64,000 bases of DNA. It comes from Herbaspirillum autotrophicum. Lineage in GTDB: Bacteria > Pseudomonadota > Gammaproteobacteria > Burkholderiales > Burkholderiaceae_D. The stretch is from contig NZ_LFLS01000027.1 in the NCBI RefSeq assembly GCF_001189915.1, positions 1 to 64,000 on the forward strand, written 5' to 3'. Positions within the stretch are counted from its first letter, which is position 1; each line of letters starts with the position of its first letter. The position numbers and the translations under genes are program-made. The notes beneath the pieces are model-generated. The model was not told the origin of the DNA. It ran no database searches and saw only the letters and a list, made by a program, of their open reading frames with translations. Positions 35,519-42,093 of this stretch are shown piece by piece.

Positions 35519-36556
35519 ATGCAACAAGGAATTGTCATTCACGCGCCGCACGATTTGCGCGTTCAGGAATTGGAAACCGGCACCTTGCAGCCGCAGCAAC
35601 TGAAAGTCAAAGTCAAGGCCGGCGGCATTTGCGGGTCCGATCTGCACTACTATCATCACGGCGGTTTCGGCACGGTGCGCATCAAGGAACCGATGGTGCT
35701 GGGCCACGAAGTTTCCGGCGTGATTGCCGAAGCCGGCAGCGGCATTACCGACATCGCGCCCGGTACCAGGATTTCGATCAGCCCGAGTTTGCCGTGCGGC
35801 AGTTGCAAGTACTGTCAGGAAGGCAAACAGAATCACTGTCTGGATATGCGCTTTTACGGCAGCGCCATGCGCATGCCGCACGTACAAGGCGCGTTCCGTC
35901 AGGAAATCGTGATCGAGCGTTCGCAGGCGCACGTGGTGGCCGATCATGTGAGCGATGGCGAAGCAGCGATGGCCGAGCCGTTGTCGGTGGCCTTGCACGC
36001 GGTGCGTCGCGCCGGCCCCTTGTTTGGCAAGCGGGTGCTGGTCACCGGTTGCGGTCCTATCGGTGCACTGACGGTAATCGCCGCCCGCCGTGCCGGTGCC
36101 TTGCAGATCGTGGTGACCGATGTCGCCAAAATGCCGCTGGAAAGTGCACTCAAGGTCGGCGCCGATCAGGCGATTGATGTCAGCGCCGATCCGCAGGCAC
36201 TGCAGTCTTTTACCAAAGACAAGGGCAGCTTCGACGTACTGTTTGAAGTCAGCGGCAATGAACAGGCGTTGCGCGGCGCGCTCGATACCTTGCGTCCCGG
36301 TGCCGTGATCGTGCAAGTTGGTCTCGGCGGCGACATCAACTTCCCGGCCAACCTGCTGGTCGGCAAGGAACTCGAATGGCGCGGCGCCTTCCGCTTCCAT
36401 GAGGAATTCGCAATCGCCGTGGAGTTGATGAACAAACGCCTGGTCGACGTCAAGCCGCTGATCTCCGCAACCTATCCGTTCGAACAATCGGTCGACGCGT
36501 TCAATATCGCCGGTGACCGTTCGAAGATGATGAAGGTGCAGCTCAGCTTCAATTGA
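35519..36556 (+). CDS. idnD: L-idonate 5-dehydrogenase, zinc alcohol dehydrogenase family
   Basis: A 345-residue medium-chain dehydrogenase. Catalytic zinc ligands fit GGICGSDLHYY (Cys) and LGHEVSG (His-Glu). The structural zinc site is the CGSCKYCQEGKQNHC cluster. The Rossmann motif is TGCGPIGAL. It oxidises L-idonate to 5-ketogluconate, which the preceding gene product can reduce to gluconate. AGGAG precedes the ATG. It is last in the operon; a strong hairpin follows. Confidence 0.88.
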   Translation: MQQGIVIHAPHDLRVQELETGTLQPQQLKVKVKAGGICGSDLHYYHHGGFGTVRIKEPMVLGHEVSGVIAEAGSGITDIAPGTRISISPSLPCGSCKYCQEGKQNHCLDMRFYGSAMRMPHVQGAFRQEIVIERSQAHVVADHVSDGEAAMAEPLSVALHAVRRAGPLFGKRVLVTGCGPIGALTVIAARRAGALQIVVTDVAKMPLESALKVGADQAIDVSADPQALQSFTKDKGSFDVLFEVSGNEQALRGALDTLRPGAVIVQVGLGGDINFPANLLVGKELEWRGAFRFHEEFAIAVELMNKRLVDVKPLISATYPFEQSVDAFNIAGDRSKMMKVQLSFN

Positions 36557-36578
36557 AGGTCAGTTGAACCGGATTGGC

Positions 36579-36616
36579 AACAACGGGGCGGGCCGTCATG
36601 GCACCGCCCCGTTGTT
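36579..36616. terminator. Bidirectional terminator between idnD and the Rha-like gene
   Basis: The arms AACAACGGGGCGG and CCGCCCCGTTGTT are perfectly complementary over 13 bp, with further GCC/GGC pairing inside. It lies between two convergent stop codons and its last base is the first of the Rha-like stop triplet. T-rich sequence on both sides is modest. Confidence 0.75.
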
Positions 36617-37008
36617 CACTGGCTGTCGCGCCGGGGGGAGTTGCCACGCGGCTGCCGGTTCAGAATGGTCTGTTCAATCTGACTGAACTGCTCCACATAC
36701 GTCAGCATGAACGGGCGCGTGGTCTTGCTGGCGAATGCCACGCCCAGCAGCATGAAACCTTCGAACGTCATGCGATAGGCGCGCGCTCTGGCATCGCGTT
36801 TGCCATCGCTCCTGAATGCCGGTGCGATTTGCAGGAAGTGCGGGTCATGCCAGCGCGACGGCAATTCCATCTGTACCAGATCGATACCGAGCAATATCTT
36901 GCTGTGCGGCTTGCCGAAAAAACGTGCGACCTGCTGGCTGGTGGTCACTGCCTTGCCATCGGCGATGGATACCAGACCGTCGTTGTGTTGCGAAGAACCT
37001 GAATGCAT
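36616..37008 (-). CDS. Rha-family phage-type regulatory protein
   Basis: A 130-residue protein that matches the phage Rha (pRha) domain: VTTSQQVARFFGKPHSKIL at about residues 20-38, then an F/Y-rich middle, and YRMTFEGFMLLGVAFASKTT near residue 90. Rha proteins are small phage regulators first noted in lambdoid phages, where they can interfere with growth in certain hosts. GGGAG six bases before the ATG at 37008 fixes the start. It is divergent from a CI-like repressor, as in a lysogeny control region, but no structural phage genes are near. Confidence 0.82.
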   Translation of the reverse strand: MHSGSSQHNDGLVSIADGKAVTTSQQVARFFGKPHSKILLGIDLVQMELPSRWHDPHFLQIAPAFRSDGKRDARARAYRMTFEGFMLLGVAFASKTTRPFMLTYVEQFSQIEQTILNRQPRGNSPRRDSQ

Positions 37009-37431
37009 CAATACTCCCGTCATTGAAGGATGAAGCGTGAAAGACAACGCCGGCCATGACCGGACATGGGCTGCTTCGGGCATGCCATCCGGTTGCCTTG
37101 CCGGCAAAATGATTCCGGCCGCAATGTGCCGGTCCACGCACCGCGAGACTCGCAATCAATCGATATTTAAGTAGAAAAATAGCGATATTTGTCCATGTGA
37201 ATAGACGATACGAAGTGTTTTGGCGGCTTGGAAGAGGGGGCGAAGTCATGTTGCAAACGACTTGCGCAATGCCTGCCATACCTGGCGATATTGCTGTAAC
37301 AGTGAATTGGCCCGGTTAACACCGAATGATTGAAGCGTCGGCGCTAAAGTCAATTCCGAACAGGTAATATTTTGTTTCCTTGTGGAAACTTAAGTGTATT
37401 TATCTTCCTGTGATGAGTCTATTTTGATATT

Positions 37432-37443
37432 CAAATCGATTTG
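37432..37443 (+). promoter_or_regulatory. Palindromic operator candidate 1 (CAAATCGATTTG)
   Basis: A perfect 12-base palindrome 45 bases before the repressor start. It shares the half-site CAAAT with the next palindrome, 30 bases further on, which suggests a dimeric protein binds both, probably the CI-like repressor itself. Confidence 0.6.
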
Positions 37444-37460
37444 TTGATTCCTATACAAAA

Positions 37461-37475
37461 AACAAATCATTTGTT
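37461..37475 (+). promoter_or_regulatory. Palindromic operator candidate 2 (AACAAAT-C-ATTTGTT)
   Basis: A perfect 7+1+7 inverted repeat only 13 bases before the start codon of the repressor. Repressor bound here would block its own transcription or translation start, typical of autoregulated phage repressors. Confidence 0.65.
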
Positions 37476-37487
37476 AGATTCTTGCTC

Positions 37488-38207
37488 ATGAGCACTTTCC
37501 CGGAACGCATCCGTATCATCCTGTCCGAAATGGAAGGGCCGCAACACGGCAAGCAAAGCAGGCTGGCGCAAATCGCCGGTTGCACGCGTGGTTTGGTCAA
37601 TCAATGGAAGATCGGGATTCATGAAACCATGGGCTACGCCTATGCCAAAAACATAGAGAAGGCGCTCGGTTACAGTGTGTCGTGGGTTCTCGATGGCACC
37701 GGCGCCAAGCAAACCGGCATCGGCGCCACGCGCTATTTTGTCTCGGAGGAAGCCAGCGGTGTCGGTGAGTTCACGGTCTCGGATCATGAACTGGTGCCGG
37801 TCAAGACCGGCGTGCTGAACCTGAAAGCCGGCAGCGAAAAATTCAACGTGGTGCCGATAGATAATGACGATTTGCCGTTCGTGGTACGGCGGCACTGGAT
37901 CAACACGCACGGCTACGTGCTCAAGCGCCTGATTGCCATCAAGGTCAGCGACGACAGCATGGAACCGGCGTTGTACGAGGGCGATACCATCATCATCAAT
38001 ACCGCCGACCGGCAGTTTCTCGACGGCGTCGCATTCGCCATCAACTACGAAGGCCAGCTCAGCCTCAAGCGCATGATGCGCGACGGCGGCGAATGGTGGC
38101 TGGCGTCGGATCATCCCGATCAGCGCCGTTTTCCGCGCAAGCTTTACCGGGTCGGTGATTGCAATCCGATTGGACGGATTGTCTGCAAGCAGAGTGCGCA
38201 GATTTGA
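37488..38207 (+). CDS. CI/LexA-like phage repressor (helix-turn-helix plus S24 peptidase)
   Basis: A 239-residue repressor. The N-terminal DNA-binding domain (about 5-65) has RLAQIAGCTRGLVNQWKIG. The C-terminal S24 domain (about 140-235) holds the self-cleavage Ser in VSDDSMEPALYEGDTI and the Lys in GQLSLKRMM. It should bind DNA as a dimer and may inactivate itself after DNA damage via RecA. Start is the ATG at 37488; a TTG two codons upstream is possible. It is divergent from the Rha-like gene and converges 45 bases away on the nuclease-like gene. Confidence 0.9.
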   Translation: MSTFPERIRIILSEMEGPQHGKQSRLAQIAGCTRGLVNQWKIGIHETMGYAYAKNIEKALGYSVSWVLDGTGAKQTGIGATRYFVSEEASGVGEFTVSDHELVPVKTGVLNLKAGSEKFNVVPIDNDDLPFVVRRHWINTHGYVLKRLIAIKVSDDSMEPALYEGDTIIINTADRQFLDGVAFAINYEGQLSLKRMMRDGGEWWLASDHPDQRRFPRKLYRVGDCNPIGRIVCKQSAQI

Positions 38208-38252
38208 TTGTCATTCTGAGCACGGTTTAATCGAGGTGGTTTGATGCAATGA

Positions 38253-38771
38253 TCAAATAACGGTCCAATTCATTGTCGGATGTAATGAATTCTGGTCGAC
38301 GACTGCAGGATGAGGATCGATTGCTTTTAGCAAGGTTCTTAGTTTGAGTATGAGATGCGCTGGTTCAATTGCTCTCGGCCGCAATTTTGAGTGTTTCGCT
38401 GGTTGCTCTAAATGACATACGATGCGTACTTTGTTCGCGTGAATTAGTTTTTTTGCGCAAGACTTTTCGTCTGGGTCGACTGCTGAACATTTGGCGCTGA
38501 CAAGTCCGGCCAGAGTATCTCTGACTTTGATAGCTACTTCGTCACCTAAATCAATTGTCTTGGTTCTTGCATGCTGTCGAAAGTCTTTAATTTCGATCAG
38601 CCAAGCGGTATTCCCCTCTGCAAAGACTATGTCAACGGCTTTGCTGGAGCCACAAATTTTCTGGGCTTGATTTCTATAGTGCGACCAATCGTCATACTTG
38701 CTGGATATGCTGTCGGCAGGAAAGGTAAATGTGAGATTTCCTTCGACCAAGGTTGATTGGATAACTGACAT
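38253..38771 (-). CDS. Putative PD-(D/E)XK-type nuclease partner of the ATPase
   Basis: A 172-residue protein with no named family that I recognise. A hydrophobic strand carries Asp47 (KAVDIVF), then 12 residues later Glu60-Ile-Lys62 on a second strand (WLIEIKDFR), the arrangement D-x12-ExK of PD-(D/E)XK nucleases. A helix rich in Lys/Arg follows (EVAIKVRDTLAGL). Its start codon overlaps the ATPase stop codon by one base (TAATG), so the two are translationally coupled. Nuclease activity is inferred from motif and context. Base composition is AT-rich relative to the chromosome. Confidence 0.65.
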   Translation of the reverse strand: MSVIQSTLVEGNLTFTFPADSISSKYDDWSHYRNQAQKICGSSKAVDIVFAEGNTAWLIEIKDFRQHARTKTIDLGDEVAIKVRDTLAGLVSAKCSAVDPDEKSCAKKLIHANKVRIVCHLEQPAKHSKLRPRAIEPAHLILKLRTLLKAIDPHPAVVDQNSLHPTMNWTVI

Positions 38772-39814
38772 TACGTCTCCTCTGCATCGAGGAAGCGATC
38801 TGATTGTCTTAACTCTTCGTCCAACGAAACTATGGTATGCAAATCATCAATCCGATCACCTTGTTCCAAGATAACTGCATCTGACTCGGCTACCAATGAA
38901 AAATATCTCGAATTCATTTCTTTGTAATTCTTGTTTGTCGCCAGCATCTCTAATTCTCGAAGCAGAAATAGCGAATGTGTAGCGATGAAAATCTGGATTC
39001 CTTCTGACGCCAGGCGAACGATACTTTCAGCAAGGGTCTTGATGAGTTTGGGGTTTAGGTTTGTTTCCGGTTCGTCCCAGAACAGATAGCCTTGTTCAAG
39101 TAATACTCCTGTACTTATCAAGCGGGCCAACATTGCGAGTTTCCTCATTCCTTCTGCGACGAGCGGCATTTCCATTCGTCCCTCTCCAGTTACCTGAAGA
39201 TAAAACCGGCCGTTCGCCCCATCAACGACAACCCTGCCTCCCATCGCTTCTTCAAGTGGTTTGAGTAATCTGGCAACTTTGTTTGCACGAGGACCTTTGA
39301 TCGAAGGAGCACCAAGCAGTGAAACGGTATCGCGCCATGTTTCCTCAAACTCGATATGATAATTGTCATATAGCGGAACAAACCATGGACATAATGTGGC
39401 CAATTCACGCGTCGGAAAATAAACTGGAGACAGAGTCAAGCATTCATTCGGCGCCTGAATTACTTCAACTTGAGATTTGGCATTGGTCGCAAAGGCAATT
39501 TTGCTGTTTTTACCATCGTCTTTCATCGTCAGCGCAATTTCGCAACGATCGCGGCCTTGTTTACGCTTTACCAAACGCCCAATAGACTCTGGACGCATTA
39601 CCGCGATCAGCTTATCGGCATACGCTTTTTCGAGCGTAGATTTAGAAAAATCCTTCCCAATTTGGGCCTGTACTTTTAGCATCGAATAGATCGCTTTGAG
39701 CACATGTGATTTTCCCAAACCATTTTCTCCTACGATCACATTTATGCCGGAAGAGAACTTCCATATTGCATTTGGTACTGTTGTTAAGTTTTGAAACTGC
39801 GCCTTTTCTAACAT
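38771..39814 (-). CDS. AAA/ABC-type (OLD-like) ATPase of a two-gene module
   Basis: A 347-residue SMC/ABC-like ATPase of the AAA_15/AAA_21 type. Walker A is GENGLGKS (29-36), a signature-like VAEGMRKLAMLARL stands at about 218-231, Walker B is YLFWDEPETN (243-252), and the H-loop is FIATHS with His about 280. There is no fused TOPRIM domain, so unlike true OLD proteins it needs a separate effector, probably the coupled 172-residue gene. AAGGA precedes the ATG. Such ATPases sense phage components in systems like Septu or PARIS; the specific partner here differs from both. Confidence 0.82.
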   Translation of the reverse strand: MLEKAQFQNLTTVPNAIWKFSSGINVIVGENGLGKSHVLKAIYSMLKVQAQIGKDFSKSTLEKAYADKLIAVMRPESIGRLVKRKQGRDRCEIALTMKDDGKNSKIAFATNAKSQVEVIQAPNECLTLSPVYFPTRELATLCPWFVPLYDNYHIEFEETWRDTVSLLGAPSIKGPRANKVARLLKPLEEAMGGRVVVDGANGRFYLQVTGEGRMEMPLVAEGMRKLAMLARLISTGVLLEQGYLFWDEPETNLNPKLIKTLAESIVRLASEGIQIFIATHSLFLLRELEMLATNKNYKEMNSRYFSLVAESDAVILEQGDRIDDLHTIVSLDEELRQSDRFLDAEET

Positions 39815-40257
39815 ATTGCGTCCTTATAAAGACCTTATTTTACAGTTTGCCTATGCATGAATTAGATGGGTATCAGGCGGCCTCCAACTCTGTTTTTCTA
39901 TGCCAAATCATACTGGTCAGACTAATAAATAGAAAAATAGCATCATAACCGTGCAAGTATCTCATGCACCTGACACTATGCAATAGCCAGACATTACGGA
40001 GGCTATTGTTCACGTACCATTCAGGCACACAGGCTTAGGGTAAAACATCGGAGCGAACAGAGGATTTGTGTTGACCCGCACCAAGCGTCCTGCGGCCGGC
40101 AGCAACATGTTATTGCTGCCGATACGAAATTGCGCAGGTACTCGTTGGTATTAATGAAGGGGCTGCCGAAAGGACCCAATTTCAGGAAGATATGAGGAGC
40201 TACAGATGTTTCCTGTCAAGACCAGGTCTATCATTCTGGCAATGAAGGATATTGCGT
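39815..40257. other. Intergenic stretch upstream of the ATPase pair
   Basis: About 440 bases with no credible gene on either strand. It contains the ATPase promoter region on the left and a perfect hairpin at 40098-40122. No tRNA or attachment-site duplication was seen. Confidence 0.5.
40098..40122. repeat. Perfect 9-bp inverted repeat
   Basis: CGGCAGCAA and TTGCTGCCG flank the loop CATGTTA. No T-run follows on either strand. It lies about 135 bases past the ribE stop codon on the minus strand and may be a remnant of an element end or a protein site. Confidence 0.5.
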
Positions 40258-40872
40258 TTATTTGTCGATCGACAGCATTCGTTCCACATACCGCGCAATC
40301 ACATCAATCTCCAGATTGACCTTGCTGCCGGCTGCCAGATGCTTGAGCGTGGTGACCTGAATCGTGTGCGGAATCAGGTTGATCGAGAAGCTGCAGCCGC
40401 TGGCGCTGTCTTCGACGCGGTTGACGGTCAGCGAGACGCCGTTGACCACCACCGAGCCTTTGTATGCCAGGTATTTGGCCAGTGACTTCGGCGCTTCGAC
40501 GATCAATTCCCATGATTCACCGACCGGTTCGAACTTGCGTACCGTGCCGAGGCCGTCGACGTGGCCGGAGACCAGATGGCCGCCGAGCCGTTCGGCCAGC
40601 GTCAGCGCCTTTTCCAGATTGACTTCGCCCTGTGCGTCGAGGCCGGCAGTGAGGCTGAGACTTTCACGCGAGACATCGACCGTAAAACCGTGGGCGGTCT
40701 TTTCGACCACGGTCATGCAGGCGCCATTGAGGGCAATCGAGTCACCCAGATTGACATCATGCAACGGCAAGCTGCCGGCATCGATGTTGAGACGGACACC
40801 GGCGTCGGGGCCAGCGCCAAGTGCTTGTACGGAAGTGATTTTGCCGACGGCGGCAACGATACCTGTAAACAT
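40258..40872 (-). CDS. ribE: Riboflavin synthase, alpha subunit
   Basis: A 204-residue enzyme of two homologous lumazine-binding halves. It begins with the signature MFTGIVAAVGKI. Each half has the SLTV-type substrate loop (NGACMTVVEK in the first, NGVSLTVNRV in the second) and SGHVDGLG lies between. It dismutates two 6,7-dimethyl-8-ribityllumazine molecules to riboflavin. It lies 17 bases after ribD, with which it should be co-transcribed. This gene is also called ribC in some genomes. Confidence 0.95.
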   Translation of the reverse strand: MFTGIVAAVGKITSVQALGAGPDAGVRLNIDAGSLPLHDVNLGDSIALNGACMTVVEKTAHGFTVDVSRESLSLTAGLDAQGEVNLEKALTLAERLGGHLVSGHVDGLGTVRKFEPVGESWELIVEAPKSLAKYLAYKGSVVVNGVSLTVNRVEDSASGCSFSINLIPHTIQVTTLKHLAAGSKVNLEIDVIARYVERMLSIDK

Positions 40873-40889
40873 GCGGATACCTGAAAAAA

Positions 40890-41996
40890 TTAAGTGAATC
40901 GTGCAAGGATACGCAAATCTGCGCCGATTTGCTTGACCTCATGAAAACGCAATTCCAGACTGCCGGCCAGATCGTCGAGGGCGGGCAGATCGAACATGTC
41001 GCGCGCGTCGCCCAGCAGGCGCGGCGCCAGATAGAGCAGCAGCTCGTCGACACAGTGTTCGCGTAACAGCGAGGCATTGAGCTTGGAGCCGGCTTCGATA
41101 TGCAATTCGTTGATTTGCCGTTTGCCGAGTTCTTGCATCACTTGCGGCAAATCGACCTTGCCATCGGCGTTGGCGGCGACGATGACTTCGGCGCCGGCCG
41201 CTTCCAGCAATGCGTGTTTCTGGCGGTCATCGCTGGCGGTGAATACCCAGGTGCCGCCGCCGCTGACCACCTTGGCTGCCGGCGACAAGGCCAGCTTGCT
41301 GTCAATCACGATGCGGCGCGGCTGGCGCGGGGTGGCAATGGCGCGCACATTGAGTTGCGGATCGTCGCCGCGTACCGTGCCGATACCGGTCAGGATGGCG
41401 CAGGCGCGGGCGCGCCAGACATGACCGTCATCGCGCGCGGCCTGGCCGGTGATCCACTGGCTCTTGCCATTGTGCAGAGCGGTCTTGCCATCCAGACTGG
41501 CGGCGCTTTTCATGCGTACCCACGGCGTGCCGCGCTGCATGCGGGTAAAGAAACCGATATTGATGGCGTGCGCCGCGTCGCGCAGCACGCCGCTGCTGAC
41601 GTCGATGCCGGCGGCCTTGAGCCGTTCCAGCCCCCGACCGGCGACCAGCGGATTGGGATCGCCGATGGCCGATACCACACGGCCGACGCCGGCCCGGATC
41701 AGTGCATCGGCACACGGCGGGGTGCGGCCGAAATGGCTGCATGGTTCGAGCGTGACGTAGACGGTGGCGCCACGCACGTCATGGCCGTTGGCTTGCGCAT
41801 CGTGCAGCGCTTCGATCTCGGCATGATTGCCGCCCGGCGGCTGCGTGAAGCCGGCGCCGATGACGCGCTGCTCCCTGACGATGACGCAACCCACGCGCGG
41901 ATTGGGGGTAGTGGTGTACATGCCGCGTTCGGCCTGTTGCAGCGCCAATGCCATGGCTTGCTGGTCGTCGGTGATCGCTGGAAATGAAATGGACAT
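40890..41996 (-). CDS. ribD: Bifunctional diaminohydroxyphosphoribosylaminopyrimidine deaminase / 5-amino-6-(5-phosphoribosylamino)uracil reductase
   Basis: A 368-residue enzyme doing two consecutive steps of riboflavin synthesis. The N-terminal deaminase domain has the zinc motif HAEIEAL and the second zinc block EPCSHFGRTPPC. The C-terminal NADPH-dependent reductase begins after residue ~145 and includes PWVRMKSAASLDGK. Start is the ATG at 41996; ribosome binding is weak. It is followed by ribE at 17 bases. Confidence 0.94.
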   Translation of the reverse strand: MSISFPAITDDQQAMALALQQAERGMYTTTPNPRVGCVIVREQRVIGAGFTQPPGGNHAEIEALHDAQANGHDVRGATVYVTLEPCSHFGRTPPCADALIRAGVGRVVSAIGDPNPLVAGRGLERLKAAGIDVSSGVLRDAAHAINIGFFTRMQRGTPWVRMKSAASLDGKTALHNGKSQWITGQAARDDGHVWRARACAILTGIGTVRGDDPQLNVRAIATPRQPRRIVIDSKLALSPAAKVVSGGGTWVFTASDDRQKHALLEAAGAEVIVAANADGKVDLPQVMQELGKRQINELHIEAGSKLNASLLREHCVDELLLYLAPRLLGDARDMFDLPALDDLAGSLELRFHEVKQIGADLRILARFT

Positions 41997-42093
41997 ACGG
42001 TTTCTGCTCGGTTCTCGAAATGAAGCCAACACCTGAAGCGTGTGCCGGCGTGCACCGCGACGTTATCACGGATTGCGGTGTCATGTGTCGATC

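Follow-up and report, generated by a model that had tools for sequence, protein, structure and literature searches.

The nearest tested architecture to the locus considered here is WonAB, an OLD-type ABC ATPase joined to a variant PD-(D/E)xK nuclease, which an original report and a review describe as acting against phage by abortive infection, with both genes and residues of both the ATPase and the nuclease being required for defense (PMC12137116; PMC12409358). In the same accounts, phage DNA replication is largely intact (a 2.7-fold defect), and upon activation the host DNA stays intact and translation is inhibited (PMC12137116; PMC12409358). The toxicity of WonB is described there as needing WonA, which is no simple antidote; the authors further assign WonAB to a wider family in which ABC-ATPases act as sensors and nucleases as effectors, point to PD-T4-4 and the Payne preprint for operons of similar organization (their references 31 and 42; PMC12137116), and connect WonAB with the operons termed “OLD-ABC ATPase + novel REase” (Krishnan et al. 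2020; PMC12137116; PMC12409358). Their report gives accessions for WonA (AWB73975.1) and WonB (AWB73976.1) and for an Anaerovibrio pair (SHI83489.1, SHI83462.1; PMC12137116). A 2026 survey reports 594 taxa that pair OLD-ABC ATPases with HNH, PD-(D/E)XK or PIN nucleases in BREX or BREX-related systems, and counts Hma among the DUF499-centered BREX-related systems (PMC12839542). Two further reports expand HEC as Hma-embedded candidate (PMC12988326; PMC10855318), and one of them credits several HECs, HEC-06 among them, with antiviral activity (PMC12988326).

We analyzed a stretch of 64,000 nucleotides from Herbaspirillum autotrophicum (the window, to which all positions refer unless a related locus is named), where a sequence-only reading had proposed an ABC-type ATPase coupled to a small nuclease-like protein as an undescribed anti-phage module. 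The coupled ABC ATPase and PD-(D/E)XK-type nuclease stand, as does a probable role in phage defense; the claim of novelty falls, as the pair is a new stand-alone copy of the catalogued candidate defense system HEC-02. The features of the locus are the following:

38771..39814, minus strand: ATPase gene (PADLOC HEC-02B, PDLC04146), 347 aa, with an ABC/OLD-type head
39707..39730, minus strand: Walker A GENGLGKS, residues 29-36 of the ATPase translation; G29, N31, G34 and K35 invariant
39404..39679, minus strand: proposed sensor insert, the central segment at about residues 46-137, placed from an abrupt difference in two pairs of relatives and not in the window itself
39140..39160, minus strand: VAEGMRK, residues 219-225, which we take to be a degenerate ABC signature; E221, G222 and K225 in 56/56 ATPases, R224 in 55/56
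39062..39082, minus strand: Walker B FWDEPET, residues 245-251; D247 and E248 in 56/56
38975..38977, minus strand: H-loop H280; 56/56
38792..38824, minus strand: C-terminal tail LDEELRQSDRF, residues 331-341, a low-confidence helix; Q337 and R340 in 56/56
38777..38782, minus strand: GAGGAG, read directly 5′ of the nuclease start, resembling a ribosome-binding site and presumably used as one
38771..38773, minus strand: ATPase stop TAA, whose base 38771 is common to the nuclease ATG (38769-38771)
38253..38771, minus strand: small nuclease gene (PADLOC HEC-02A, PDLC04145), 172 aa, PD-(D/E)XK-type
38631..38633, minus strand: nuclease D47; 90/90 small proteins
38586..38594, minus strand: nuclease E60-I-K62; E60 and K62 each in 90/90
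37482-38207, plus strand: S24 (CI/LexA-like) repressor gene, convergent on the pair; GC 57.4%
36616-37155, minus strand: Rha-type gene, beyond the S24 gene and divergent from it; GC 58.9%

Both open reading frames are confirmed, and the two genes are coupled as claimed: the minus-strand junction reads GAGGAGACGTAATG, with the one-base overlap TAATG and GAGGAG upstream. Measurement likewise bears out the AT-richness asserted against a background of ~60% GC, with the pair at 44.5% and the window at 58.8% GC; an equal or lower value is found in only 5 of 1249 windows of the same length (step 50; windows overlapping the pair included). The GC content of the pair also lies below that of its flanks in 53 of 60 related loci. 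A promoter scan over 36400-40900 returned one sigma-70-like site against 5.0 expected.

The assignment to HEC-02 comes from PADLOC 2.0, in which the small protein matches HEC-02A (272.9 bits, residues 6-171) and the ATPase HEC-02B (590.6 bits, residues 1-345), each model being covered over nearly its full length; the seven PADLOC families that the small protein matches at E <= 1 are, every one, HEC-02. The two-gene unit is alike too, the genes being adjacent, as in HEC-02, both in the window and in 79 of 80 relatives. Since both proteins belong to PADLOC HEC-02, and since the literature on OLD-ABC ATPase/nuclease pairs has already published such a pairing, we reject the description of the system as undescribed; membership of both genes in a catalogued system was the very outcome that the sequence-only reading had named as telling against itself. 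Nor is the motif set the sole recognizable feature of the small protein, as had been said, given the PADLOC match across residues 6-171. One candidate “undescribed” system is thereby struck from the list. The HEC systems reportedly come from a 2024 preprint by Payne et al. In the main texts searched, “HEC-02” occurs only in one unrelated paper on nano-silver, and “HEC-02A” and “HEC-02B” in none. As a separate observation, HEC-02 seems to carry swapped A and B labels in PADLOC-DB 2.0 between PDLC04145/04146 and PDLC04213-04229: one model set names the small protein HEC-02A, the other HEC-02B.

An alignment of 90 small proteins (the window's, those of 73 of the 80 loci and 16 of 120 listed database proteins) has D47, E60, K62, W57 and K82 identical throughout. 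Thus, the D-x12-E-x-K motif is no chance match. The PD-(D/E)XK core is an alpha-beta-beta-alpha-beta unit, with the D at the start of a strand and the E-x-K in the next. The AlphaFold2 model of the nuclease (pLDDT 90), a check that the sequence-only reading had suggested, displays this topology: helix 30-39, strand 48-52 with D47 just before it, strand 55-63 bearing E60 and K62, helix 75-96 and strand 114-122. The model tentatively resembles restriction enzymes and McrC. Profile comparison with PDB sequences returned nothing at E <= 1; Pfam gave no match above cut-off for the small protein, and its two NCBIfam matches both lie below the curated cut-off.

The Walker A, Walker B and H-loop motifs read in the ATPase are all present, and in an alignment of 56 ATPases (the window's and those of 55 of 79 loci) K35, E137, D162, E221, G222, K225, D247, E248, N254, H280, Q337 and R340 are identical in all. 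Pfam places AAA_21 and AAA_15 above cut-off, and among the 25 of 59 NCBIfam matches listed no curated cut-off is reached. The ATPase resembles Rad50 by sequence and fold, and in comparisons of the predicted structure its head resembles Rad50, SMC and PtuA. The model is at a pLDDT of ~62 over residues 331-347, and the conserved C-terminal tail in this region is a candidate nuclease-docking element.

Protein searches yielded 873 small-protein relatives from 938 candidates and 4884 ATPase relatives among 8000 candidates scored (E <= 1e-3; not all of these are HEC-02). A genome scan found 206 small-protein relatives, and in the best 80 of the 206 the ATPase gene lies directly upstream of the nuclease gene in 79 loci, the neighborhood survey thus answering in favor of a recurrent pairing; in the remaining locus (L083) the nuclease match starts 131 bases from the contig start. 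In 78 of the 79 pairs the genes are spaced by -16 to +10 bases, the exception (L041) having a broken ATPase with a doubtful start call, and the two genes overlap in 52 of the 79. Hosts include Pseudomonadota, Thermodesulfobacteriota, Planctomycetota, Chloroflexota, Cyanobacteriota, Chlorobiota, Myxococcota and Spirochaetota. The small-protein gene is rare in the window's class (2 of 369 genomes, its own included), and among 41 near relatives searched only the window's own genome has it. It occurs in only 2 of 72,556 plasmid records. A module carried by phages was considered and rejected: the viral_contigs scan for the nuclease gave 71 pattern matches and 0 relatives, and phage records held no nuclease match and two distant ATPase relatives (36-37% identity). 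Two more divergent arrangements also came to light. At L149:976-2839 a longer ATPase (457 aa) overlaps a protein of 172 aa that bears an ELKD motif, which makes this a similarly arranged but more distant pair. At L152 (genome G272), 1501-2097, one open reading frame joins the N-terminal part of an ATPase to a nuclease-like tail (LRVVLHLEQP) and seems to be a copy in decay.

In 21 of 79 loci one of the three closest upstream open reading frames is of the HmaB type (a methylase), which agrees with the name Hma-embedded candidate, and in 14 of these 21 an HmaC-type open reading frame lies downstream; the calls rest on BLASTP clusters, with PADLOC matches in L017, L020, L023, L039 and L082 as anchors. 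No HmaB-type neighbor lies upstream in 45 of 66 classified loci, the window's included. The window copy is of the kind that stands among ordinary genes, examples elsewhere being an RNase E/G family gene (L004), a molybdopterin-binding dehydrogenase (L066) and sugar-nucleotide enzymes (L036, L074). It differs from HEC-02 as named in standing alone, outside the Hma embedding that gave HECs their name (and that is not known to be required), and a search of its own genome found no HmaC. HEC-02 is thus a widely spread pair, often outside Hma. Within Hma, a DUF1016/YhcG PDDEXK gene sits between the HmaB-type gene and HEC-02 at L007:5779-6846, with BLASTP relatives upstream in L008 and downstream in L017, that is, nuclease insertions stacked in Hma.

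Compared over 36001-42000, the DNA similarity of the window to its closest relatives, L004 and L005, ends at the ends of the pair (~38243-39817), as if the pair moved alone. Among near relatives, the two flanks lie near each other only in the congener G005, where ~7.5 kb of other genes separates them; in four other stretches only one flank aligns. We therefore discarded the idea of a clean empty site, since the G005 site is filled and single-flank alignments leave the insertion boundaries unfixed. In G005 these other genes (L138, 1361-8830) lie between the sugar dehydrogenase and ribE/ribD, which makes this a variable spot, and by eye they include an AI-2E-like transporter, a diguanylate cyclase and a flavin oxidoreductase. 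The phage-type regulators noticed beside the window pair do adjoin it, but their link to the module is unsupported: they probably lie outside it, because their GC content is native, the S24 gene is convergent with the pair, and neither S24 nor Rha had a tblastn homologue (E 1e-3) in the flanks of the 80 related loci, which extend at most 8 kb on each side and are often shorter. The two genes may be left over from a prophage or may act as a resident regulator.

Comparison of close relatives uncovered a mosaic in the ATPase. In L015 and L019 the nucleases are 94% identical and the ATPase ends near-identical, and L015 7065-7540 (approximately residues 50-207) has no blastn alignment to L019 at E 1e-5. 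In L037 and L063, with nucleases 85% identical, L037 5757-6013 (approximately residues 53-137) is a DNA gap within ~4.8 kb of sequence aligned elsewhere at 76-79%. In both pairs the ATPase ends and nucleases are ~85-97% identical around a central segment that cannot be aligned as DNA. Of the 17,955 pairs that 190 ATPases form, these two show the largest deficits in the middle (z -5.4 and -4.9), measured over residues 46-200 relative to the C-terminal part, with limits set after the first pair was seen; the next are further pairs among L012, L015, L019 and L035. At the protein level the replaced stretches retain a weak alignment with the reading frame kept; hence, a frameshift does not explain the mosaics, which could stem from exchange or from very rapid local evolution. 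We tentatively propose, with doubt somewhat outweighing confidence, that the ATPases of HEC-02 possess a recognition segment open to exchange, lying between the Walker A helix and a conserved P-x-[RK]-E motif and swapped wholesale between close relatives as the ATP-binding parts, C-terminal tail and nuclease stay nearly identical. Since the mosaics point to this segment, it may be the sensor; the mosaic is possibly a new observation. If so, the module would join a constant nuclease switch to a phage sensor that can be swapped, and trigger specificity would be best sought in the central segment; together, tight pairing and mosaic segment suggest a direct way of testing how OLD-ABC ATPase sensors recognize infection. 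In a related vein, the nucleases of L012, L015, L019 and L035 are 51-58% identical to that of the window and their ATPases 36-38%, which might reflect a swap of partners or a clade of divergent ATPases.

We consider it likely that stand-alone HEC-02, in which an OLD/SMC-like ABC ATPase and a small PD-(D/E)XK-type nuclease are translationally coupled, acts by abortive infection in the manner of WonAB, from which, by analogy, its mechanism is best read. The ATPase would dimerize on ATP, sense a phage-induced signal, probably via its central insert, and hold and stabilize the nuclease, probably via its conserved C-terminal tail. Once triggered, it would license the nuclease to cut nucleic acid (RNA, if a guess by analogy is allowed), and this cutting would halt both phage production and host growth, as with the similarly built WonAB.

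The likeness of the ATPase head to Rad50, SMC and PtuA and of the nuclease model to restriction enzymes and McrC, together with the presence of relatives inside the restriction-like Hma, would also suit direct restriction, in which the ATPase would load on DNA from a phage or plasmid for the nuclease to cut, with no arrest of the host. We regard this as unlikely, since Pfam finds no DNA-recognition domain in either protein (E <= 1) and WonAB spares most phage DNA replication (the 2.7-fold defect) and apparently halts translation (PMC12137116). Were the pair instead a toxin–antitoxin or plasmid-maintenance unit with no role against phage, the ATPase neutralizing a toxic nuclease, its near-absence from plasmid records would be unexpected, as would the precedent of a WonB toxicity that requires WonA and of a WonA that is no simple antidote (PMC12137116); this reading, to which tight gene coupling, rarity in the class and a GC content commonly under that of the flanks lend themselves, is very improbable. 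A housekeeping role in DNA repair by a Rad50/SbcC-like head and a nuclease strikes us as scarcely credible: the resemblance to Rad50 speaks for it, but a pair of low GC content, confined to one of 41 near relatives and two of 369 genomes of the class, hardly befits such a function.

The WonAB-like reading leaves the pair distinct from several better-known systems with similar ATPases, and we rejected its membership in Septu, PARIS, OLD and Gabija. OLD carries a TOPRIM nuclease. So do PARIS and Gabija, according to the 2026 survey (PMC12839542); these systems share with the window pair an OLD-family ABC ATPase head (the AriA model matches in part, at 78.6 bits), whereas no TOPRIM was found in either window protein (Pfam, E <= 1), as the sequence-only reading had stated. 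That reading was also right to set the pair apart from Septu, whose PtuB is an HNH nuclease (PMC8565338): the window partner is of the PD-(D/E)XK type with an invariant D-x12-E-x-K, and Pfam gives no HNH match at E <= 1 in either protein. The ATPase matches PD-T4-4_A in part (63.6 bits), but the small protein has no PD-T4-4_B match at E <= 1. At the level of a survey, the BREX and BREX-related dyads of OLD-ABC ATPases and PD-(D/E)XK nucleases display the same pairing as the window, and the passages on these dyads mention neither HEC-02 nor copies that stand alone (PMC12839542). WonA seems longer than the window ATPase, its mutated residues, as published, reading as K34 (Walker A) and E300 (Walker B), 266 apart, against K35 and E248, 213 apart, in the window. 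Like WonAB, the window pair is a two-gene operon in which an OLD/ABC ATPase is coupled to a nuclease of predicted PD-(D/E)xK fold.
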